The notes under the pieces: generated by a model
What the model saw: the letters and a program-made list of their open reading frames with translations, nothing else
Database searches by the model: none
What the model was told of the DNA's origin: nothing
Position numbers and translations under genes: made by a program
IMG/VR virus record: IMGVR_UViG_3300008450_000174
Span: 1-35,998 of that record
Length of the DNA stretch: 35,998 bases
Source: a virus
Reading direction: 5' to 3' (one strand)
Shown: piece by piece, positions 7,536 through 31,002 of the stretch
Layout: each line of letters opens with the position of its first letter
How positions within the stretch are numbered: position 1 is the stretch's first letter

Positions 7536-7572
7536 GGATAACAGAACGAATACAACTGAGAAAAGGAGCAAC

Positions 7573-11364: not shown

Positions 11365-11509
11365 ATGCCTGAACTGTCACGGCATCGTGACACATGATCC
11401 GCGTCAGTTGACGGGCTGCAACTGTGACCCTGACGCACCACAGTGGTGCTACATCGAGAAGGATGGGCGTGTGCGTGGCTGGTCGCTCGCCAAGTGGGAG
11501 GACTGCTGA
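11330..11509 (+). CDS. Small Cys-rich protein, possible zinc ribbon
   Basis: AAAGGTG (11315-11320) positions ATG 11330 as the start; a GTG at 11318 would lie inside that site. The 59-residue product has CLNCHGIVTHD and then GCNCDPDAPQWCYIEKDGR. The Cys pairs suggest a zinc ribbon. The stop overlaps the next start (TGATG). It is one of three consecutive tiny Cys-rich proteins. Confidence 0.6.
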   Translation: MTNLNGDAKKVRCLNCHGIVTHDPRQLTGCNCDPDAPQWCYIEKDGRVRGWSLAKWEDC

Positions 11510-11658
11510 TGCCACGCCAACAGTGGGAATGTCCTGTCTGTAAGCGGCACATCGTGTTGCATGTGAAGCCGTCGTGTCCCCCTGTGTGCACGAACCCTGA
11601 GAAACATTCCCGTCAGCCGACCCCTATGGAGAAGGTAGAGTTTGAACATGGACGATGA
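11509..11658 (+). CDS. Small zinc-ribbon-like protein
   Basis: ATG 11509 lies in the stop of the previous gene, and the frame gives 49 residues. It reads MPRQQWECPVCKRHIVLHVKPSCPPVCTNPEKHSRQPTPMEKVEF. The CPVC plus CPPVC pairs at 16-residue spacing form a zinc-ribbon pattern common in actinophage mini-proteins. A role in nucleic-acid or protein contact is likely; no specific function is known. Confidence 0.65.
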   Translation: MPRQQWECPVCKRHIVLHVKPSCPPVCTNPEKHSRQPTPMEKVEFEHGR

Positions 11659-12025
11659 AGAGATCGAACTGACGCAAGAAGATTACGAGGCTGCCGTTTC
11701 TTTCTTGCAAGAGGTGGGGTTGATCGAAACGTACGGTGTCACTGAGGAGGGGAACGAGTTGTTCCAGTTGGCTGAACCTGTGGTGTCAGCGATCCTCGCA
11801 GATGTGATGACGATAGACCAGTGGCTGGAGTTGGGGCATCGCAAAGGTTTCTGTGGGCCTGCTCTCTGCTACGGGCATGACGGTATGGCGACAAGCCGTC
11901 AAGAGGACGACGACTTCTTCGACGGTGGTGATCCGTGCTTCCATTTCGTACGTTTGTACGATTCGCCTGAGCAGAAGAAGGCGGTTGAGGAGAATCATTC
12001 GCCGTCTGTTTGGCGTGCGCTGTAA
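11648..12025 (+). CDS. Hypothetical acidic protein
   Basis: ATG 11648 is preferred over TTG 11642 because it follows GGAGAAGG at acceptable spacing. The 125-residue acidic protein begins with a helical part (MDDEEIELTQEDYEAAVSFLQEVGLIE). A segment with FCGPALCYGHDGMATSRQEDDDFFDGGDPCFHFVRLYD follows. The Cys, His and Asp residues in that segment are conserved in similar short actinophage proteins of unknown function. It is the last plus-strand gene before the convergent minus-strand block. Confidence 0.7.
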   Translation: MDDEEIELTQEDYEAAVSFLQEVGLIETYGVTEEGNELFQLAEPVVSAILADVMTIDQWLELGHRKGFCGPALCYGHDGMATSRQEDDDFFDGGDPCFHFVRLYDSPEQKKAVEENHSPSVWRAL

Positions 12026-12032
12026 CGAGGTT

Positions 12033-12070
12033 CCCCCGCCATCGGAAAAGGGATAACACAATGGCGGGGG
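12033..12070. terminator. Hairpin between convergent gene blocks
   Basis: CCCCCGCCAT (12033-12042) and ATGGCGGGGG (12061-12070) form a perfect 10-base stem around an 18-base loop. It sits just after the stop of the last plus-strand gene and before the end of the last minus-strand gene, the expected place for a two-way terminator. There is no clear T-run on either side, so strength is uncertain. Confidence 0.6.
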
Positions 12071-12083
12071 GAAACCCCGTCGC

Positions 12084-12365
12084 TCAACGGTGGCGCAGTG
12101 GTGGATGCGCTTTTCTATGACCGTCTGCGAACTTCACCCAGTCTACCTTGACGGGGTGGACGTTTGACAACCCTGACCACATGATCGAGGAGCGGCAGGA
12201 CTGCTCTGTCCCCCACTTGTAGATGAGCGGTAGATGCTTAGTCATTGTCCTGCCCTGCCACTTGTATGGCCCTGCCCAGAACTTGCCGTTGTCGTGACGC
12301 GCTATCCATACGGGCAGTGATGCTCGTGATGGTGGATGTTTGCGCCTGAAGAGGCGCAGCATCAT
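12084..12365 (-). CDS. Small basic hypothetical protein
   Basis: The start codon at 12365 overlaps the stop of the upstream gene (ATGA). The 93-residue product is basic: a Arg/Lys head (MMLRLFRRKHPPSR), then SLPVWIARHDNGKFWAGPYKWQGRTMTKHLPLIYKWGTEQSC and a basic tail. Trp and aromatic residues suggest a small folded domain. No family was recognised. It is the last gene of the minus-strand unit. Confidence 0.6.
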   Translation of the reverse strand: MMLRLFRRKHPPSRASLPVWIARHDNGKFWAGPYKWQGRTMTKHLPLIYKWGTEQSCRSSIMWSGLSNVHPVKVDWVKFADGHRKAHPPLRHR

Positions 12366-12526
12366 GCGCTAATCATCTCCTCGACGTACACATCGTCGTA
12401 GCCGTTGGCACGGTAACTGTCGGCGAGCGTTTCGGCTTGGTCGTAGGTGAGGAAGTGGTTGTTCACTTCCACGTCATTGACGTAGACGCTGTATCGGTGG
12501 CGACTGACCTGCTGCTGCGACATCAT
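12362..12526 (-). CDS. Small hypothetical protein
   Basis: This 54-residue frame runs from ATG at 12526 to TGA at 12362-12364. It reads MMSQQQVSRHRYSVYVNDVEVNNHFLTYDQAETLADSYRANGYDDVYVEEMISA. It has a beta-hairpin (YSVYVNDVEV) and a helix (TYDQAETLADSYRANGY), the layout of small 'DUF1653/KTSC-like' mini-domains, but no family is claimed. It follows the previous stop with one base between and overlaps the next start by 3 bases. Confidence 0.65.
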   Translation of the reverse strand: MMSQQQVSRHRYSVYVNDVEVNNHFLTYDQAETLADSYRANGYDDVYVEEMISA

Positions 12527-12527
12527 G

Positions 12528-12680
12528 TCAGTACCCGCCCTGCTGCTGTGACCACTCCTGTAGCAGAACGTATGCCTGCTCTAGACAGTCGGTGTCTGTT
12601 GCTTGGTTGCCGTCTTGGTTGAGGATGGCGTACAGGTCATCGAGCCATTCGCCATCGGTTTTCGTTTCCGTGAGTGTCAT
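12528..12680 (-). CDS. Small acidic hypothetical protein
   Basis: ATG at 12680 is chosen over far upstream starts because AGAAAAGGAACAGAACA, the leader sequence typical of this block, lies directly before it. The start also overlaps the stop of the upstream membrane protein (ATGA). The 50-residue acidic protein (MTLTETKTDGEWLDDLYAILNQDG, then DCLEQAYVLLQEWSQQQGGY) is two short helices. No family was recognised. Confidence 0.65.
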   Translation of the reverse strand: MTLTETKTDGEWLDDLYAILNQDGNQATDTDCLEQAYVLLQEWSQQQGGY

Positions 12681-12817
12681 TGTTCTGTTCCTTTTCTGTG
12701 TTGGTATGCACGCCGCGTGGCGGTCATGCGCTGTTGTTTGTTGCGCTCTATGTGTATGCCCGTCAATAGTCCGAGGGCGGGAAGTACTGCGACGATCGCG
12801 AGGGTGACCAGTGTCAT
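12677..12817 (-). CDS. Single-span membrane mini-protein
   Basis: This 46-residue frame runs from ATG at 12817 to TGA at 12677-12679, overlapping both neighbours by 4 bases. Residues 3-20 (LVTLAIVAVLPALGLLTG) form one membrane segment, followed by a basic tail (ERNKQQRMTATRRAYQHRKG). The tail codons are also the ribosome binding site of the next gene. Its topology is like that of small phage membrane proteins that alter the host envelope or respond to superinfection. Function unknown. Confidence 0.6.
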   Translation of the reverse strand: MTLVTLAIVAVLPALGLLTGIHIERNKQQRMTATRRAYQHRKGTEQ

Positions 12818-13002
12818 GCGGTGCAGTCCTCGCATTCGTCTGCCTCATCTGTGGGCCATGTCGTCCCGCAGTTTGGGCACTCCTGGAATGTTGCGGTTCT
12901 CTGTATCTCGGCTGCGTGTGAACGTCTGTCACTTGCCGCACGTTTGCGGGGTGATGACAGCAGTTCGCTGAACAGTCGGAACGGTTCGTACTTTTCGGTC
13001 AT
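12814..13002 (-). CDS. Small zinc-ribbon protein
   Basis: ATG at 13002 follows the AGAAAAGGAGCAAGGCA leader. The 62-residue product has a basic helical front (MTEKYEPFRLFSELLSSPRKRAASDRR) and a C-terminal zinc ribbon, CPNCGTTWPTDEADECEDC. It is the first gene after the promoter at 13049-13077. A DNA- or RNA-contact role is possible. Confidence 0.7.
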   Translation of the reverse strand: MTEKYEPFRLFSELLSSPRKRAASDRRSHAAEIQRTATFQECPNCGTTWPTDEADECEDCTA

Positions 13003-13048
13003 TGCCTTGCTCCTTTTCTGTTGTGTCGGTTACCAGCCGACGAATACC

Positions 13049-13077
13049 AGTATAGCACACTTGTCAAGTCTTGTCAA
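13049..13077 (-). promoter_or_regulatory. Strong sigma70-type promoter (minus strand)
   Basis: Reading on the minus strand, TTGACA (13072-13077) is followed after 17 bases by TATACT (13049-13054), close to consensus. The -35 box is part of a tandem repeat ACTTGACAAG-ACTTGACAAG, so a second TTGACA lies 10 bases downstream. That doubling could let a repressor or two polymerase registers use the site. It drives the genes from 13002 down to 12084. Confidence 0.8.
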
Positions 13078-13102
13078 GTATCTTTATTTCACTGGGGTTT
13101 CA

Positions 13103-13336
13103 TTAGTCCTCCGTTTTCGTTTCGTACTCCCACGAAATGATCGAGTAGTACTCGTCGGGCGTGGCTGCTCCGTTCCGTAGTTGTTCGGGTGTCATGTAGT
13201 AGGCGATGCGTATGTCACGCACCCCGTGAGTGTCGGTGTCTGTGTCTTCGTCGTACTCTCCGAACGATACATACACCGTGTGGTTGTGTCCTGTTGTGTC
13301 TTGTACGAGGACGTGCGCACCTATGTTCTGTTTCAT
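13103..13336 (-). CDS. Hypothetical acidic protein
   Basis: The start at 13336 is chosen because it overlaps the upstream stop (ATGA) and has GGAGGGGAAAG just before it. The 77-residue product (MKQNIGAHVLVQDTTGHNHTVYVSFGEYDEDTDTDTHGVRDIRIAYYMTPEQLRNG, then YYSIISWEYETKTED) is a small, acidic, mixed alpha/beta protein. No family was recognised. Its end lies about 25 bases upstream of the 13072 -35 box. Confidence 0.65.
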   Translation of the reverse strand: MKQNIGAHVLVQDTTGHNHTVYVSFGEYDEDTDTDTHGVRDIRIAYYMTPEQLRNGAATPDEYYSIISWEYETKTED

Positions 13337-13524
13337 TCTTTCCCCTCCCATCCACAGTGTGTGCAGCAGCCGTGTTCGACTGAGCCGCGCCGCCGTCTTC
13401 CTGTGATCTGTTGCTTAGTCCAGCACGGGTCGTGCTGTGCGTGGACGGGGCATAGGAACGTGGTCGTTGTCCCGTCTCTGTTGATTGAGCAAGCGCACTG
13501 CGCGTGCTTTGTGTCTGTGCTCAT
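13333..13524 (-). CDS. Small Cys-rich protein, possible zinc binding
   Basis: ATG at 13524 is preceded by AAGGGGGCAACGA and overlaps the stop of the upstream mini-gene. The 63-residue product has seven Cys: CAC near the front, CPVHAQHDPC in the middle and CCTHCGWEG at the end, with several His residues. It probably binds one or two zinc ions. No family was recognised. Confidence 0.6.
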   Translation of the reverse strand: MSTDTKHAQCACSINRDGTTTTFLCPVHAQHDPCWTKQQITGRRRRGSVEHGCCTHCGWEGKE

Positions 13525-13631
13525 TCGTTGCCCCCTTCGTAGCGTGGCGGGTTGTCGATCATGTATCGGCACACTCGTACCGTGCCAAGCACCCAGCCAG
13601 TGAGCGCAAGGAAAGCGATCAGGGGTTCCAT
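13521..13631 (-). CDS. Single-span membrane mini-protein
   Basis: ATG at 13631 lies one base after the stop of the upstream gene and gives 36 residues: MEPLIAFLALTGWVLGTVRVCRYMIDNPPRYEGGNE. The first 20 residues form a membrane segment, followed by a short polar tail. An alternative ATG at 13646 adds five residues. It is too short for a firm call, but overlaps and spacing fit the operon pattern. Confidence 0.5.
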   Translation of the reverse strand: MEPLIAFLALTGWVLGTVRVCRYMIDNPPRYEGGNE

Positions 13632-13632
13632 G

Positions 13633-14001
13633 TCATGCCCACTCATGGTCGATGACGTAGCCTGCACGGTTACGGTCTGCGAACAGTACCGACGAAAGCG
13701 AATACACAAGGTGAAAGCCCATGTCCATGCCGCAGCCACCGACACGAATGACATTCCATCCGTGCAAGTCGCGCGGCTTCTCACCTAACGCGATCGCGGC
13801 GGTGTAGGTGATGTCGCGCAGCGTCCCCTCGTCGTCCACGATTTTTAGCGTGATGTCGCGTGACATTCCCGACTTGGAGACATGCCGCAAGAAGGTGTAA
13901 ACGACTGGCTTACCGTCGCGCCGCTTCTCTGACTTGTCTACGAGTTCACGCAAGCGTGCGCGTGCCTCGTCTCGTTCCTGTAGTTGTGCCTTTGTAGGCA
14001 T
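13633..14001 (-). CDS. Conserved phage protein (LRHVSKSGMSRDI family)
   Basis: ATG at 14001 follows AGAAAAGGAGAAATACACA, the shared leader of this block. The 122-residue protein has a charged helical front and then YTFLRHVSKSGMSRDITLKIV, DITYTAAIALGEK and GWNVIRVGGCGMDMGFHLVYSLSSVLF. It ends in AGYVIDHEWA. The pattern LRHVS-x-SGMSR with GCGMDMGFHLVY is widespread in phages of actinobacteria and other bacteria, but its function is unknown. The strict conservation of Gly-Cys-Gly-Met-Asp-Met suggests an active or binding site. Confidence 0.82.
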   Translation of the reverse strand: MPTKAQLQERDEARARLRELVDKSEKRRDGKPVVYTFLRHVSKSGMSRDITLKIVDDEGTLRDITYTAAIALGEKPRDLHGWNVIRVGGCGMDMGFHLVYSLSSVLFADRNRAGYVIDHEWA

Positions 14002-14010
14002 TGTGTATTT

Positions 14011-14038
14011 CTCCTTTTCTGTTTGTCTTCGGTCGGTA
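14011..14038 (-). repeat. Shared 28-base leader, copy 1
   Basis: These 28 bases, ending in the ribosome binding sequence AGAAAAGGAG, are identical to 14604-14631. They lie directly upstream of the gene starting at 14001. Shorter versions occur before the genes starting at 13002, 12680 and 14910, and before the plus-strand gene at 7573. The repeat extends well beyond what ribosome binding needs. Confidence 0.75.
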
Positions 14039-14125
14039 TCCACCACGGAAACCGTTACCTTGTACCGTAGTCCCGTCTCGCTCGGGATGCAAGCCTTTCG
14101 CCTGTCTACGGTGATCCTGTTTGGA

Positions 14126-14314
14126 CTATTTGTTCTGCCAACTTGGGGCGACGTGGATGTCCCACAACTCGCGGAACATTGCTGCCGACTCGTATTCTTT
14201 GCGTGCCAACTCCTGCCGTGCAGACTCCAAACGTGCTTTCGCTCGCTCGACCTTGCGCTCCAGTGCTTCCATCTCTCTAAGGGTTCGGCAGTACTCGTCG
14301 TGCGTTGTCATCAT
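14126..14314 (-). CDS. Small coiled-coil protein
   Basis: AGGAGGTGGA lies directly before ATG at 14314 (a second ATG follows at 14311). The start overlaps the upstream stop as ATGA. The 62-residue product is nearly one helix (MMTTHDEYCRTLREMEALERKVERAKARLESARQELARKEYESAAMFRELWD) with strong heptad spacing. A coiled-coil dimer is likely. No family was recognised. Confidence 0.65.
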   Translation of the reverse strand: MMTTHDEYCRTLREMEALERKVERAKARLESARQELARKEYESAAMFRELWDIHVAPSWQNK

Positions 14315-14595
14315 TCCACCTCCTCGTCGATGATGATCCACGGGAAGTACACCACCGTATTGTGCTTTCCTGATGCGTCGTAACGGATGTCCGACTCCAT
14401 CATCAAGTCGAGCAACTCACGGAACTTGCGTCCACCCATTCCGAGCCACGCGAACGTGCGCGCCACGTCATCAGTCGTGATCGCTAGACACTCCTCCTCG
14501 TACATTGTGCGTCCCGAGTACGGGCCGGCCTCCCCTAACTGTCCGAGCACGTCGCGGATGTCCGCGAGCGTCTCAGCGTCGAGTTTGTATTTCAC
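14311..14595 (-). CDS. Hypothetical protein with GTG start
   Basis: GTG at 14595 is chosen because AAAGGAGCAAGGACA, the block's standard leader, directly precedes it; longer frames would read through that leader. The 94-residue product has KYKLDAETLADIRDVLGQLGEAG, then YEEECLAITTDDVARTFAWLGMGGRKFRELLDLMMESDIRYD and VVYFPWIIIDEEVE. It appears helical with a terminal beta strand and is acidic. No family was recognised. Confidence 0.7.
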   Translation of the reverse strand: MKYKLDAETLADIRDVLGQLGEAGPYSGRTMYEEECLAITTDDVARTFAWLGMGGRKFRELLDLMMESDIRYDASGKHNTVVYFPWIIIDEEVE

Positions 14596-14603
14596 TGTCC
14601 TTG

Positions 14604-14631
14604 CTCCTTTTCTGTTTGTCTTCGGTCGGTA
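14604..14631 (-). repeat. Shared 28-base leader, copy 2
   Basis: This block is identical over 28 bases to 14011-14038 and lies upstream of the GTG-start gene at 14595. The conserved part reaches from the ribosome binding site up through a TACCGACC motif. Confidence 0.75.
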
Positions 14632-14704
14632 CGCACCACACGCACCGCACCTTGTGGACTGGCGGGGCAACGAACCCCTCGACCCCTACAGGTCACCAGT
14701 CCTG

Positions 14705-14722
14705 CCAGGTCAGGCGACCTGG
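14705..14722. terminator. Hairpin at the end of the first minus-strand gene
   Basis: CCAGGTC (14705-14711) and GACCTGG (14716-14722) form a perfect 7-base stem with a 4-base loop across the stop codon of the gene ending at 14710. There is no T-run, so it may be an attenuator or an mRNA end-stabilising structure instead of a full terminator. Confidence 0.45.
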
Positions 14723-14910
14723 TAAGCCTGCTCCCTCACCTTGTCACGCAGGTCACCCGCCTCCAGCAGCCTACGCACGACGTAGCGTCCCCACTCGAAC
14801 CCGTCCCCCTCCGCTTTCTTGACCTCATCCAGCCAGAACGTGACATCAGCGTCCAGGATCGCCAGCAGGTGAGACACCTGCCCCCTGGTGAGTGTGATCT
14901 GAGTTTCCAT
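14710..14910 (-). CDS. Small helical hypothetical protein
   Basis: ATG at 14910 follows GGAGAAAAGGAGCAAGGG. The 66-residue product is METQITLTRGQVSHLLAILDADVTFWLDEVKKAEGDGFEWGRYVVRRLLEAGDLRDKV and so on, two or three helices with a Trp-rich middle. It is the first gene of the minus-strand block, directly under the promoter at 14962-14990. No family was recognised. Confidence 0.7.
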   Translation of the reverse strand: METQITLTRGQVSHLLAILDADVTFWLDEVKKAEGDGFEWGRYVVRRLLEAGDLRDKVREQAYQVA

Positions 14911-14961
14911 CCCTTGCTCCTTTTCTCCTGGAGGATCCACCACGGAACCTCACTGAACACC

Positions 14962-14990
14962 ACTCTACAGGAACCCCGACCCTTTGTCAA
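14962..14990 (-). promoter_or_regulatory. Sigma70-type promoter of the minus-strand block
   Basis: On the minus strand TTGACA (14985-14990) is followed after 17 bases by TAGAGT (14962-14967). The -35 context (AAGACTTGACAA) is shared with the promoter at 13049-13077. A perfect 6-4-6 dyad lies 10 bases upstream at 15000-15015. Confidence 0.7.
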
Positions 14991-14999
14991 GTCTTTTAG

Positions 15000-15015
15000 G
15001 TTACAGTTGTGTAAC
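15000..15015. promoter_or_regulatory. Dyad GTTACA-GTTG-TGTAAC upstream of the minus-strand promoter
   Basis: A perfect 6-base inverted repeat with a 4-base spacer begins 10 bases upstream of the -35 box at 14985-14990. Size and place fit an activator or repressor site for a dimer. It has the same geometry as the GTYAGG dyads but a different sequence. Confidence 0.5.
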
Positions 15016-15053
15016 AAAAACTAGAACCATTAGTCCCAACACACCCCACCTTT

Positions 15054-15069
15054 GTCAGGCTCACCTAAC
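15054..15069. promoter_or_regulatory. Dyad GTCAGG-CTCA-CCTAAC, putative operator copy 2
   Basis: This site matches the dyads at 7474, 17676, 33211 and 34359, with one mismatch between arms at position 3. It lies about 64 bases upstream of the -35 box of the minus-strand promoter. Flanking TTG/CAA adds two more paired bases. Confidence 0.5.
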
Positions 15070-15088
15070 AAGGCGGCACGTCTCGTGT

Positions 15089-15125
15089 AGGACTTTTCGT
15101 CCTGTTCTGGTTGGACTTGTAGTCC
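15089..15125. repeat. Two adjacent small hairpins
   Basis: AGGAC-TTTTC-GTCCT (15089-15103) and GGACT-TGT-AGTCC (15113-15125) are two near-copies of the same short stem, separated by 9 bases. They could be DNA dyads or RNA stems. No known element was recognised. Confidence 0.45.
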
Positions 15126-15161
15126 TATGGGGGGTGGGGGGTTCTACTTACCAGTCAGTAA

Positions 15162-15212
15162 GTTACTGAACGGTCAGTCAAACTGGGGGTGGGTGGGTTA
15201 CTGAACGGTCAG
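15162..15212. repeat. 16-base direct repeat pair, 35-base period
   Basis: GTTACTGAACGGTCAG occurs exactly at 15162-15177 and again at 15197-15212. The first copy is also the right arm of CAGTAA-G-TTACTG (15156-15168). Between the copies is a G-rich stretch (GGGGGTGGGTGGG). Spaced exact repeats in a non-coding gap are typical of protein-binding arrays at origins, operators or packaging sites. Confidence 0.6.
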
Positions 15213-15648
15213 AAAGTAGGAACGGGGGGTCTGCCGCGCGCACGGGGTGTATGTATATATATAAGCCTCGGGGTGTGTGGTCATTTTTGTGAGTTGGGTG
15301 TCGGTTTGGGGGTTGTGTGTTTGTGACCAGGCTCCACCTTTGGGCTGTTGGCCTGCTTGTTTGTGGGTGGGGGCTTATTGGTTTTTATCCCCCTACTCCT
15401 GCTGGCAGGATTGCTGGCTGGTGGCAAATCTTTTTAGCCCCCCAAGTTCTGTTTTACGTCTGAACCCGTCTGTTCTCAATACCAAAAGAAGACGACAATC
15501 TACGGTCCCCTTTTCAGGCCACTAGTCCATGCGATCTAACCATGCTGCCCTGGCAGTTGTATGCGAGGAGGAATGTAATCGTTTAGGAGAACCGTATTTT
15601 TTGGGTTCGCAACGCTTCCCAGCGTGACGTGTGCGATGAGCATAACAC

Positions 15649-17661
15649 ATGTGGCAGATGGTTTGCAACTATCATGTGATGATTATGGTTGCTGGTCGTT
15701 CGGGGAGACGTCAGATTCCGCCGCAGGATGTGGCACGGTATTGGCAGTCTCGGGCTGCGGGGATGTCTATTCAGGATGCTGCGGGTATCGCTGGGATTCA
15801 TGTGAATACTGCTACGAAGTGGGAGGCGAAGCGGCGGAAGGCGCAGGCTGAGATCCAGTTGGCTGAGGTGGAGGTCGGTCAGGTTGTCAAGAAGCAGGGT
15901 GGCAGGCAGGCGGATGCGTGGAAGTCTGCGATGGAGGTGGCGGATCTTCCTCCTGTGATCCCGTACGACAGGCTTTCCCCTGAGGCGCAGCGCGGTTTGG
16001 AAGATTTCGACTACTTCCGTCGCCGCTATTTGGGTAGGGTGCCGTCCCCGTGGCAGGTGGATGCCGCATACAAGATCGCCCAAATGTTGCAGTCCCCTGA
16101 GAAAGAGTTCATCCTCATCAACTGTCCCCCTGGCGCAGGGAAATCGACACTGTTCCATGATTTCGCGGTGTGGATGATTTGCAGGAACCGCAAGATCCGT
16201 GTGTTGATCGGGTCCGCCACCCAAACCCTTGCAAAAATGTATTCGCGTCGTATCCGCGAAACCCTGGAACGCCCGTTCCCGCTCACCCCAGACCCCATCC
16301 TCGTGGAGAAAGGGCTGGCGTTGAACGCGGAAGCGTGCCTGTCTATCGACTACGGCAGGTTCAAACCGTCATCCTCTGGTGCACTGTGGAGAGCAGAAGA
16401 GTTCATAGTGGAACAGGAAGACTTATCGGGACTGGATAACAAAGAACCGACCGTCTCCTCCTACGGCATCGACTCAGAGTTCATCGGACACCGCGCCGAC
16501 CTGTGCCTCTTCGACGACGTAGCCACCCCAGAGAACGCCAAAGAGTCCGTCGCTAGAGACAAACTGTTAGAACGCTGGGACACTGTGGCGGAAGCCCGTG
16601 TCGATCCAGGTGGCACCCTCGTGGTGATCGGACAGAGGCTCGGACCAGGCGACCTCTACGCGCACTGTCTATCTAAAGTCACTTACGAAGAAGACCCCGA
16701 CGCATACGACGGCTCCGATGTGACAGACGTGTCCGCCGAGGTGGAGCCAGAAAAGAAATCGAAGTACACGCATTTCGTGTACAAAGCCTATTACGAAGAC
16801 CTGGACACGGGAAGAGAGTCCCGACGCACCATCGCACCCCCGTGGCCCAACGGACCGCTACTGGACCCGTACAGGTTGAGTTGGAAAGATTTGTCCTACC
16901 TCAAACACTCCGCCCCCGCCAAGTTTGATGTCATCTACCAGCAGCAAGACCTCGCACAAGGCCAGTACCTGATCGAGCGAGTGTGGGCGACAGGTGGCAT
17001 GGGACCAGACGGTGTGCTCTACCAGGGCTGCATCGACACTGACCGTCGCCCTGGATACATCCCACCCAACCTCGAACCCCCGATCATTTCCATCGCTTCC
17101 GTGGACCCCAGCCCCACAAACTTTTGGGCAATCCAATGGTGGCTTTACCAGCCATCCACCAACCTTCGCTACCTGGTTGACCTGGAACGGACGAAACTAA
17201 CGGCGGAGGAACTTCTCGGATTCAACACGAGCAGCCGCGAGTACGGCGGAATAATGGAGGCATGGCAGAACAGGTCGTTCGAGATGGGCTACCCGATCTC
17301 CCACTGGATTGTTGAAGTCAACGCCGCCCAACGCTTCCTCCTCGCCCACGACTTCGTACGCAAATGGCAAGCCCTCCACGGTGTTCTTGTCGTCCCGCAC
17401 ACAACCTCCCGTAACAAGTTAGATGAGAACCTGGGTGTTGAAGCGCTACTGCCACCGCTGTGGCGCAACGGACAGGTACGCATCCCGACCATGCGTGAGA
17501 ACTGGAAGACGCTTGCCTTCATTGAGGAGATGTCGTCGTGGACACGCAACAAAAAGAACGGGACGGACTTGGTGATGGCTCACTGGTTCGCTGAACTTCA
17601 CATGCCACAACTCGGTCCGATGAAACGACCACCCCGACTATGGCGCCCCTCGTGGATTTAG
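15649..17661 (+). CDS. terL: Terminase large subunit with N-terminal helix-turn-helix
   Basis: The packaging ATPase is recognised by Walker A NCPPGAGKST (about residues 158-167) and Walker B LCLFDD (285-290). A SVDPSPTNFWAI strand (Asp486) opens the RNase H-like nuclease domain. The first 60 residues carry a helix-turn-helix (GMSIQDAAGIAGIHVNTATKWEAKRRK), like the DNA-binding part of small terminase subunits. No separate small terminase gene lies upstream, so this part may supply the packaging-site recognition. The start is uncertain: ATG 15649 is the first after a stop, with ATG 15658, 15679 and 15685 as alternatives and no strong ribosome binding site. At 670 residues it is longer than usual, which the extra N-terminal part explains. 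Confidence 0.9.
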   Translation: MWQMVCNYHVMIMVAGRSGRRQIPPQDVARYWQSRAAGMSIQDAAGIAGIHVNTATKWEAKRRKAQAEIQLAEVEVGQVVKKQGGRQADAWKSAMEVADLPPVIPYDRLSPEAQRGLEDFDYFRRRYLGRVPSPWQVDAAYKIAQMLQSPEKEFILINCPPGAGKSTLFHDFAVWMICRNRKIRVLIGSATQTLAKMYSRRIRETLERPFPLTPDPILVEKGLALNAEACLSIDYGRFKPSSSGALWRAEEFIVEQEDLSGLDNKEPTVSSYGIDSEFIGHRADLCLFDDVATPENAKESVARDKLLERWDTVAEARVDPGGTLVVIGQRLGPGDLYAHCLSKVTYEEDPDAYDGSDVTDVSAEVEPEKKSKYTHFVYKAYYEDLDTGRESRRTIAPPWPNGPLLDPYRLSWKDLSYLKHSAPAKFDVIYQQQDLAQGQYLIERVWATGGMGPDGVLYQGCIDTDRRPGYIPPNLEPPIISIASVDPSPTNFWAIQWWLYQPSTNLRYLVDLERTKLTAEELLGFNTSSREYGGIMEAWQNRSFEMGYPISHWIVEVNAAQRFLLAHDFVRKWQALHGVLVVPHTTSRNKLDENLGVEALLPPLWRNGQVRIPTMRENWKTLAFIEEMSSWTRNKKNGTDLVMAHWFAELHMPQLGPMKRPPRLWRPSWI

Positions 17662-29927: not shown

Positions 29928-31002
29928 TGGGGTAACGAACTTCACGTTCGGGTACACGGACACGCCTGGTTTCCGTGAGTACGAGGAAGTTCCCGACTAT
30001 TCGTATCGCAAGGTTATCCACTTTGCGTCCCCGTACAAGACAACCCAGGGCTTCTATCGCGGCCTCGTCCCTGTTGAGCGTGAAGCAACCGCGTCAGGCA
30101 CAGGCACACAATCGGCGTCAGGTCTACATGTAGCGCCGCGTACGGCGTCAGCGTCAGGATCAAGTTCATCATCTACCACCACTGTGCTGGTGGCGATCCG
30201 TACGGCATCCGCCGCTGGCACCAGCAACCAGTCCGCTACTGGTGAACGCCAAGTCGAACGCACTGCCACGGCGAGTGGTCAGGGAACCACTGCGGGTGGT
30301 GCGACTGGTTTGCACATTGCGCCGCGCACCGCATCCGCGTCAGGTGTCGGCACCTCTGCAACCGTCGACCTCACCGTCCGTGCCTACACCGCATCCGCCA
30401 CAGGAACGGGAACCCAGACGGCGACGGGGCTGCGAATCGTGCCGCGCACAGCCACCGCATCAGGGACAGGTACACAGACCGCGACAGGGCAGGCGACACG
30501 GGCACGTTTCGCCACCGCCTCGGGGCTGGGGGCTGCTGCCGTCACAAGTCTGCACATCGCGCCACGCACAGCCACAGCCGCAGGCACGGGCACCCAGGTT
30601 GCCACAGGTCTGCACATCGCACCCCGTACCGCGACAGCGGCAGGGACGGGCAGCCAGGTATGTGTCGGTGCACGGATCGAACGGCGCACCGCCTCTGCCG
30701 CAGGCTCGGGAACGTCAGCCACCACAACAGTCAAACTGTTCATCTTCCGCACCCCAGCCACCACCGAAATACGACCTGCGGACCGCAACGACCTGTCAAT
30801 CTCGGGCCGCCTGTTCCGTTACGCAGAACCCACCTACTCTGGAGTCAATCTCTACAAACTCACCGATGGCACCTACACCACCGTCGAGCAACGCGAATAC
30901 GATCGCATCGTCAAGGTTTATTGGGGTGGATCGAAGAACTTTGTGAGTGCAGCAGAGAAGGCTGACCTAGTTGCAGCAGGCTATGGTGAGTACGTCACAT
31001 GA
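29920..31002 (+). CDS. Repeat-rich tail or decoration protein with C-terminal LFR(Y/H)-AAGYG domain
   Basis: The 360-residue protein has a short head (residues 1-52). About eleven repeats of 19-22 residues follow (consensus RTATASGTGTQTATGLHIAP; residues about 52-278), each beginning with RTA-x-(A/S)-(A/S)-G. The C-terminal domain (about 292-360) has LFRYAEPTYSGVNLYKLTDGTYTTVE, then VYWGG and AADLVAAGYGEYVT. The next gene encodes a second copy of this last domain. Short Thr/Ser/Gly repeats of this type build extended beta structures on virions. A role as a fibre or surface decoration is inferred. Confidence 0.75.
   Translation: MATGVTNFTFGYTDTPGFREYEEVPDYSYRKVIHFASPYKTTQGFYRGLVPVEREATASGTGTQSASGLHVAPRTASASGSSSSSTTTVLVAIRTASAAGTSNQSATGERQVERTATASGQGTTAGGATGLHIAPRTASASGVGTSATVDLTVRAYTASATGTGTQTATGLRIVPRTATASGTGTQTATGQATRARFATASGLGAAAVTSLHIAPRTATAAGTGTQVATGLHIAPRTATAAGTGSQVCVGARIERRTASAAGSGTSATTTVKLFIFRTPATTEIRPADRNDLSISGRLFRYAEPTYSGVNLYKLTDGTYTTVEQREYDRIVKVYWGGSKNFVSAAEKADLVAAGYGEYVT

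Follow-up and report, generated by a model that had tools for sequence, protein, structure and literature searches.

A divergent block of small phage genes with tRNA-like leaders, proposed sites of transcript cutting, beside a terminase-adjacent structured RNA

Introduction

The closest precedent for the punctuation of phage transcripts is the set of phage hammerheads described by Perreault et al. 2011: type II hammerheads occur in phages, clustered ones may cut long transcripts into messenger RNAs (mRNAs) of operon or gene length, and a loop I-tail pairing after stem II is given for the majority of them, not for all (PMC3088659, in the parts of that account drawn on here). Short words at gene starts are described for cluster K mycobacteriophages as start-associated sequences (SAS), to which the extended form (ESAS) adds an inverted repeat (PMC3203893, likewise from part of that account). 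Here we analyse the virus record IMGVR_UViG_3300008450_000174, positions 1 to 35,998 (35,998 bases; this whole stretch is called the window), in which a block of twelve small minus-strand genes contains two tRNA-like elements (TLEs) and is separated from the divergent gene for the terminase large subunit (TerL) by an interval that holds a structured RNA. We give somewhat better than even chances to the reading that the block is an early operon whose transcript would be cut into modules at the TLEs, and at hammerheads in relatives.

Motifs in relatives of the block share with the phage hammerheads (PMC3088659, same parts) the core CUGAUGA, GAAA, a cleavable UC, closed stems I and III and an open stem II, as well as a place shortly upstream of a gene start. 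They differ in that loop I-tail pairing is not enriched in the relatives, that the window itself has no hammerhead, and that the slot can hold a tRNA-like element instead, of which those parts of the account make no mention. As with SAS/ESAS, several small genes of the block have a common short word at their starts, in part with a structured repeat ahead of it; the sequence in the window is a different one, however, and the repeat there forms a tRNA-like three-way junction, behind which comes a second hairpin (PMC3203893, same parts). The 13-bp cluster K SAS, GGGATAGGAGCCC, does not occur at gene starts of the window, its sole match (30048-30060, 2 mismatches, 0.39 expected) lying outside the block. 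Among the listings and abstract openings of the open-access literature on tRNA-like elements with RNase P or on hammerheads in phages, we recognised no account of the elements described below.

Results and discussion

A conserved block of small genes with host-type promoters

The large genes of the window (terminase large subunit, portal, major head protein, RecE-like exonuclease and WhiB-like regulator) lie on the plus strand. The initial annotation had placed a block of eleven mini-genes on the minus strand at 12084-14910; the open reading frame (ORF) list bears out these coordinates, the strand and the range of 36-122 residues, but counts twelve ORFs rather than eleven. The features are as follows, handles of the type L004 denoting fetched loci of relatives:

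12084..14910, minus strand: block of 12 small genes, from g1 at 14910 to g12 at 12084, in the modules g1, g2-g3, g4-g7 and g8-g12
14962..14990, minus strand: promoter before g1, TTGACA-17-TAGAGT, 10/12
14710..14910, minus strand: g1, 66 residues; no match among fetched loci outside the window and contigs of its own virus
14311..14595, minus strand: g2, 94 residues, GTG start; weak match to PHROG 14658 (E 0.00023), a family without assigned function
14126..14314, minus strand: g3, 62 residues, coiled-coil-like; matches weak, at chance level
13633..14001, minus strand: g4, 122 residues, conserved marker gene, PHROG 12365
13521..13631, minus strand: g5, 36 residues, hydrophobic mini-protein
13333..13524, minus strand: g6, 63 residues, Cys-rich; relatives in L008 and L009
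13103..13336, minus strand: g7, 77 residues; relatives in L007, L012 and L017
13049..13077, minus strand: promoter before g8, TTGACA-17-TATACT, 11/12, with TG ahead of the -10 element
12814..13002, minus strand: g8, 62 residues, CxxC...CxxC, zinc-ribbon-like (weak, E 0.011)
12677..12817, minus strand: g9, 46 residues, hydrophobic mini-protein
12528..12680, minus strand: g10, 50 residues
12362..12526, minus strand: g11, 54 residues
12084..12365, minus strand: g12, 93 residues; closes the block in several relatives

From g1 to g12 the junctions measure 114, -4, 124, 1, -4, -4, 100, -4, -4, 1 and -4 bases, so that eight of eleven are 4-base overlaps or 1-base spacings and three are gaps of 100-124 bases; ATGA-type overlaps are typical of an operon. 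Codon usage, trained on 15 plus-strand genes of the window and scored per codon, favours the minus frame in 8 of the 12 block ORFs (0.08 to 0.31), the scores of g6, g8, g9 and g12 falling below zero (-0.25 to -0.05). Five competing plus-strand ORFs of 112-149 residues in the block DNA score from -0.07 to -0.28, and 12 minus-strand ORFs elsewhere in the window from -0.34 to 0.01. That the block is the only minus-strand part, as had been stated, agrees with the ORF lists (which are not a full gene call), where no other clear minus-strand gene appears. The two membrane mini-proteins and two Cys-rich proteins announced for the block can also be recognised by sequence, as the hydrophobic g5 and g9 and as g6 and g8, respectively. 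Searches of the block proteins against Pfam, PHROGs, NCBIfam and PDB sequences yielded no family of known function above the cut-off. With g12 as query only the window's own virus was matched, and weaker g12 relatives are present in the fetched loci.

The marker gene of the block is g4, which matches the PHROG 12365 profile (E 2.5e-21, 77.2 bits; a family without assigned function) and has 409 relatives among the viral contigs searched, the best 80 of which were fetched as loci. Its alignment (A1) holds 69 of 79 possible proteins, i.e. the window and 68 of the 78 loci L004-L081, after 10 identical proteins were dropped and L001-L003 excluded as the same virus as the window; the motifs SGM-R and GCGMDMGFH are invariant in it. 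Orientation is conserved as well: g4 lies opposite in strand to the terminase in 60 of 60 loci that have both, starting 1005-5206 bases (median 1830) from the terminase match. Relatives of g4 in cultured phages (40 records, every one below 60% identity and annotated as hypothetical) lie among small genes. That of Caulobacter phage CcrBL10 is within the terminal repeat, that of Microbacterium phage Shocker in a minus-strand cluster near the right end, and that of Gordonia phage Fury heads an oppositely oriented small-gene cluster. Shocker and Fury thus resemble the window in having the g4 relative in a cluster of small genes without assigned function, but belong to other phage lineages, and their g4 relative is only 43-46% identical.

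Two near-consensus promoters had been claimed for the block, and a sequence scan finds them before g1 and before g8. A 5-kb scan of the window returned 4 promoter sites versus 2.0 ± 1.4 in shuffles, which by itself is suggestive; the promoters become convincing once the relatives are included. Across all loci with both genes, the TerL-g4 intervals (119,716 bases) contain 50 promoters of at least 10/12 that point toward the block versus 4 that point toward the terminase, counts that include redundant contigs, and the structural side of the same loci contains 15 in 409,634 strand-bases. When the intervals were clustered into a non-redundant set of 41, 31 block-ward promoters of at least 10/12 remained versus 3 terminase-ward ones, at least one being present block-ward in 21 and terminase-ward in 3 of the 41. 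The host-type promoters looked for in an early operon are therefore present, and this half of the earlier proposal of early expression by the host polymerase holds up; the timing itself is plausible from the position of the block, its promoters and the placement of g4 relatives in cultured phages. The block is a conserved, divergently oriented phage gene cluster, on these grounds probably with early expression.

tRNA-like elements head a shared leader

RNA elements, here and beside the terminase gene, had gone unnoticed in the initial annotation. Two of the three longer gaps contain an element that folds much like a tRNA, followed by a hairpin and a ribosome site:

14650..14702, minus strand: TLE1, between g1 and g2; 7-bp acceptor, 5-bp arm, T-like arm, tail ACAAGG; -29.3 kcal/mol, z -3.35
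14627..14647, minus strand: leader hairpin of g2, GTGGT loop, 8 bp
14604..14613, minus strand: ribosome-site word AGAAAAGGAG; others at 14917-14926, 14011-14020 and 13010-13019 (minus) and 7559-7568 (plus)
14058..14112, minus strand: TLE2, between g3 and g4; same kind, tail ACAAGG; -20.8 kcal/mol, z -3.60
14035..14053, minus strand: leader hairpin of g4, GTGGT loop; interrupted by one mismatch, no unbroken stem longer than 4 bp found

For the two TLEs of the window, 0 and 1 of 200 shuffles fold as well. The fold comprises a 7-bp stem, a small arm of 5 bp and another arm for which 5 pairs and a loop of 5 or 7 nt are predicted; ACAAGG follows as the tail, and the predicted structure resembles a tRNA minus its anticodon arm. 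The likeness lies in a 7-bp acceptor stacked on a T-like arm, in a 7-nt T-like loop whose third position is C and whose fourth is a purine, and in a discriminator-like A; the differences are the lack of an anticodon arm, only a three-way junction being found, and a CAAGG tail instead of CCA. The 7-bp acceptor and the T-like arm with 7-nt loop are built into the descriptor used, but free folds show them independently of it (2 of 5 with a 5-nt loop). ARAGORN, run on the window and on 13 relatives, called no tRNA.

Since the descriptor partly forces pairing, the evidence for the TLEs is their tail, strand, place and shared leader. When required to end in ACAA, the descriptor matched at 59 sites across all the fetched loci, copies counted, whereas ten other tetramers in that position gave 0-6 each. 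Without any constraint on the tail, L004-L081 yielded 32 block-strand hits, of which 15 carry ACAA and 2 ACTA; neither tail occurs among the 14 hits on the opposite strand (ACAA background 0.52%). Strict rules retained 23 hits, four of which (L028, L076, L091 and L187) appeared chance-like and were dropped, which leaves 19 distinct leaders, two from the window's virus and seventeen from relatives; they come from nine genomes, and every one is on the block strand.

The order of parts is much alike in these 19 leaders: TLE, ACAAG or ACAAAG, hairpin, a linker containing ACCGA, ribosome site and start. GTGGT is present in 15 of the 19, the mean hairpin stem is 7.3 bp (4.4 in shuffled sequences), and a script placed the start codon 53-67 nt downstream of the TLE in 17 (one is given as 32, and one was assigned no start). 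The ribosome-site word AGAAAAGGAG, expected 0.06 times in the window, occurs there 5 times, before g1, g2, g4 and g8 and, once, before the RecE-like gene; many relatives have a repeated start-associated word of their own.

Hammerhead motifs occupy the same slot in relatives

A core descriptor (CUGANGA, GAAA, UH, three stems, stem II open) identified 13 distinct type II hammerheads in the fetched loci, all on the block strand, while eight altered cores gave 0 hits each in 2,713,244 bases. Hammerheads with this core are known to self-cleave. In seven loci (L033, L065, L067, L068, L070, L074 and L079) the hammerhead ends 24-37 nt upstream of the g4 start. Rfam Hammerhead_II matched L026 at 2383-2437 (29.0 bits, E 0.087) and L007 at 431-485 (25.9 bits, E 0.36), both below the gathering score of 37, and we call these motifs hammerhead-like by their core and claim no Rfam membership. 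By the strict rule, 9 of 70 g4 leaders have a hammerhead and 9 a TLE, so that the slot before g4 is common to both.

A model of transcript cutting and its alternatives

In the model that we favour, host RNA polymerase would start at the host-type promoters ahead of g1 and g8, and the long block transcript would be split into modules, g2-g3 and g4-g7 each being headed by a TLE. RNase P and RNase Z act in tRNA maturation; by analogy, host RNase P would probably cut at the 5' side of the TLE, and RNase Z would cut ACAAGG behind its discriminator-like A; the module mRNA released in this way would start with the GTGGT-loop hairpin and the shared ribosome site. In relatives, the type II hammerhead on the block strand, in several loci right before g4, would cut itself. 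Hammerheads in the slot of the TLEs are the chief reason to suppose that the TLEs, too, are places of cutting. If the model is correct, the phage would punctuate a host-transcribed operon with a borrowed tRNA shape or with ribozymes and thereby obtain many separately tuned small mRNAs from few promoters.

Several observations weigh against cutting. The TLEs lack an anticodon arm and CCA, and because of this the involvement of RNase P and RNase Z is by analogy only; their D-like loops are unconserved, and paired percentages prove nothing alone when the descriptor requires pairing. By the strict rule, 52 of the 70 g4 leaders have neither a hammerhead nor a TLE. Several of these 52 have a promoter before g4, and some have a variant or near-miss element (an ACTA tail in L054; L004, L010, L055 and L069 as read by eye). 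At E<=1, Rfam found no hammerhead in L033, L065, L067, L068, L070, L072 or L079. Loop I-tail pairing is not enriched, with at least 4 bp in 2 of 13 hammerheads and in 32% of shuffled tails, and the window carries TLEs without any hammerhead.

It is possible, if doubtful, that the TLEs are transcript-stabilising or protein-binding structures, akin to an SAS/ESAS leader, that set the translation of each module and are not processing signals. TLE, GTGGT hairpin and ribosome site do make one leader at a near-constant distance from the start (53-67 nt in 17 of 19), the relatives' own start-associated words fit such a role, and ESAS couples an inverted repeat with a start-associated word in a similar way (PMC3203893, in the parts cited above). 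A plain stabiliser, however, need not retain a tRNA-like stem stack, a 7-nt loop and an invariant ACAA, nor does it account for hammerhead motifs filling the same slot in relatives. We consider it very improbable that the block is just an ordinary gene cluster, made up of small non-essential genes, with RNA folds that are chance or neutral: g1, g3, g8, g9 and g10 have indeed no or almost no match among the fetched loci beyond the window's own virus, but the controls for covariation (of the RNA described below), TLE tail and strand, altered hammerhead cores and leader hairpins all speak against chance folds. Cutting at the TLEs and hammerheads is the reading that we prefer.

A structured RNA between terminase and block

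Between TerL and the block lies a second kind of RNA element, separate from the block leaders:

15649..17661, plus strand: terminase large subunit (TerL), PHROG 38, E 1.5e-65; divergent from the block and the terminase-adjacent RNA
15431..15605, minus strand: terminase-adjacent structured RNA of type I, between TerL and the block, on the block strand

Of 80 loci fetched by terminase, 76 have the RNA, 27 in the form of type I and 49 of type II, and none has both; the four loci that lack it have 37-1690 bases upstream of the terminase. All 27 type I hits are opposite to the terminase strand, and all 49 type II hits (for example L133 3195-3362, minus) are on the minus strand in loci with the terminase on the plus strand.

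Both types show pronounced covariation. For type IIa, 43 drawn pairs in 31 distinct sequences are paired in 95.2% of cells, with 22 pairs changed on both sides and a covariation of 0.436 (0.154 shuffled, at most 0.073 slid). For type I, 22 pairs in 40 sequences are paired in 97.0%, with 11 pairs changed on both sides and a covariation of 0.352 (0.121 shuffled, at most 0.082 slid). As both structures were drawn from the same alignments, the slid controls favour them, and for type I a measure of further pair types gave no excess over shuffles (499 of 500 reach it). The type IIa alignment (A2) holds 32 of 38 sequences, L128, L136, L150, L155, L170 and L171 being omitted as near-duplicates and the ten IIb sequences not included; that of type I (A3) holds 40 of 42 distinct sequences, with the window in place of L001 and L206 and L221 omitted. 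An excess of G-U over A-C cells (125 versus 14) favours the block strand for type IIa; the same test is uninformative for type I (1 versus 5).

A model built from IIa (R1) recovered type IIb at 36.9-71.5 bits and missed the window's type I in a search of 50 sources; run on the window alone it gave 9.6 bits at 15387-15541 in a shifted frame, a match that we do not count. That types I and II form one family rests on place, strand, mutual exclusion, a common GAAA-capped hairpin and a final run of G. Rfam at E<=1 returned no family, including that of the phi29 packaging RNA, in window positions 11900-15800 or in six loci, and blastn against cultured phages gave no match for type I and one chance-like match of 28 bases for type IIa. 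Listings and abstract openings of the open-access literature on noncoding RNA near the terminase of actinobacteriophages, structured RNA upstream of terminase and packaging RNA contained no account that we recognised.

The RNA may act in packaging, in transcription regulation or on the host. Like the phi29 packaging RNA it is a structured phage RNA, here near a packaging gene, and a role as part of the DNA packaging motor would fit its strong covariation and its position beside TerL in 76 of 80 loci, with one type each; moreover, no small-terminase ORF was recognised between RNA and TerL in the window, where 15605-15649 is too short. Its sequence differs from that of the phi29 RNA, however, and its type does not track TerL: terminases at least 89% identical go with type I in 23 and type II in 3 cases, those below 74% with type I in 4 and type II in 11. 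Because the types have been exchanged between terminase lineages, and with no Rfam match to the packaging RNA family, we regard this role as unlikely. Control of transcription or host functions, be it antitermination or a 6S-like or early decoy RNA, has more to commend it but is held tentatively. The RNA sits upstream of the block and shares its strand, an orientation with which the G-U excess of type IIa agrees; yet the block has its own promoters downstream, the type I strand test does not help, and the promoter before the RNA itself is weak by consensus (mean best score 7.6 versus 6.4 shuffled for type I, 8.1 versus 7.4 for IIa). Whichever role applies, the RNA is under strong constraint and has no known family, and its phage group is well represented among the viral contigs searched. 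The wider proposition, that TLEs and hammerheads are interchangeable cutting marks of an early operon and that a new, nearly universal terminase-side RNA acts in packaging or host take-over, is one that we would advance with caution and at less than even chances.

The g4 protein and the host

The predicted structure of g4 is confident (pLDDT 94.4). Compared to the PDB it has no clear match (E 0.11 for the best Foldseek hit, VIA-align Z not above 4.0), and its best viral structure matches are uncharacterised phage proteins. An RNase H-like arrangement, hinted at by endonuclease V and UvrC as top Foldseek matches, is far too weakly indicated to be used. No paper on PHROG 12365 was found in the open-access literature. 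The g4 family is widespread in phages and its structure is predicted with confidence; g4 is a good first target for work on toxicity or anti-defence. A role of the block in host take-over or anti-defence, as suggested by the initial annotation, would be a guess.

Because a WhiB-like gene is present in the genome, the host of this tailed phage is probably an actinobacterium. No cultured phage is close: the best terminase matches, to Streptomyces phages, are about 26% identical, and none of 50,697 phage records was matched by 11500-16000 in blastn.

Other features of the locus

Further DNA elements surround the block:

12026..12079, minus strand: strong stem-loop, possible terminator, -32.5 kcal/mol, z -4.71; between the convergent ends of g12 and a plus-strand gene ending at 12025
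15144..15215, no strand assigned: three near-palindromes around TTACTGACCGTTCAGTAA, operator- or iteron-like, between the terminase and the block promoter

Near-palindromes around TTACTGACCGTTCAGTAA are also present in L008 at 101-240, making three to four per site across the window and L008. Repeats of the form TTACTGA-N4-TCAGTAA, mostly weak, number 21 in 148,539 bases versus 23 in 628,376. No exact DnaA box occurs in the window; in the TerL-g4 intervals of relatives there are 15, in 7 of the 41 non-redundant intervals, versus 2 in 335,006 bases outside. They form clusters directly upstream of the block, e.g. in L073, L080 and L062, which suggests a replication origin in these relatives.

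In the block of L019, TAACTAAGTGT occurs at three places and in two of them makes up the spacer between the -35 and -10 elements of a listed promoter, which looks as though the promoter had a repressor site within it. The L013 block has a perfect 18-bp palindrome, ATGTTCCACGTGGAACAT, at three places, and a similar palindrome follows promoters of L004 and L010. At the start of TerL (window 15649-15850) a helix-turn-helix-like stretch can be seen by eye ahead of the PHROG match, which begins at residue 57. The left end of the record (1-2519) encodes very glycine-rich, repeat-like proteins.

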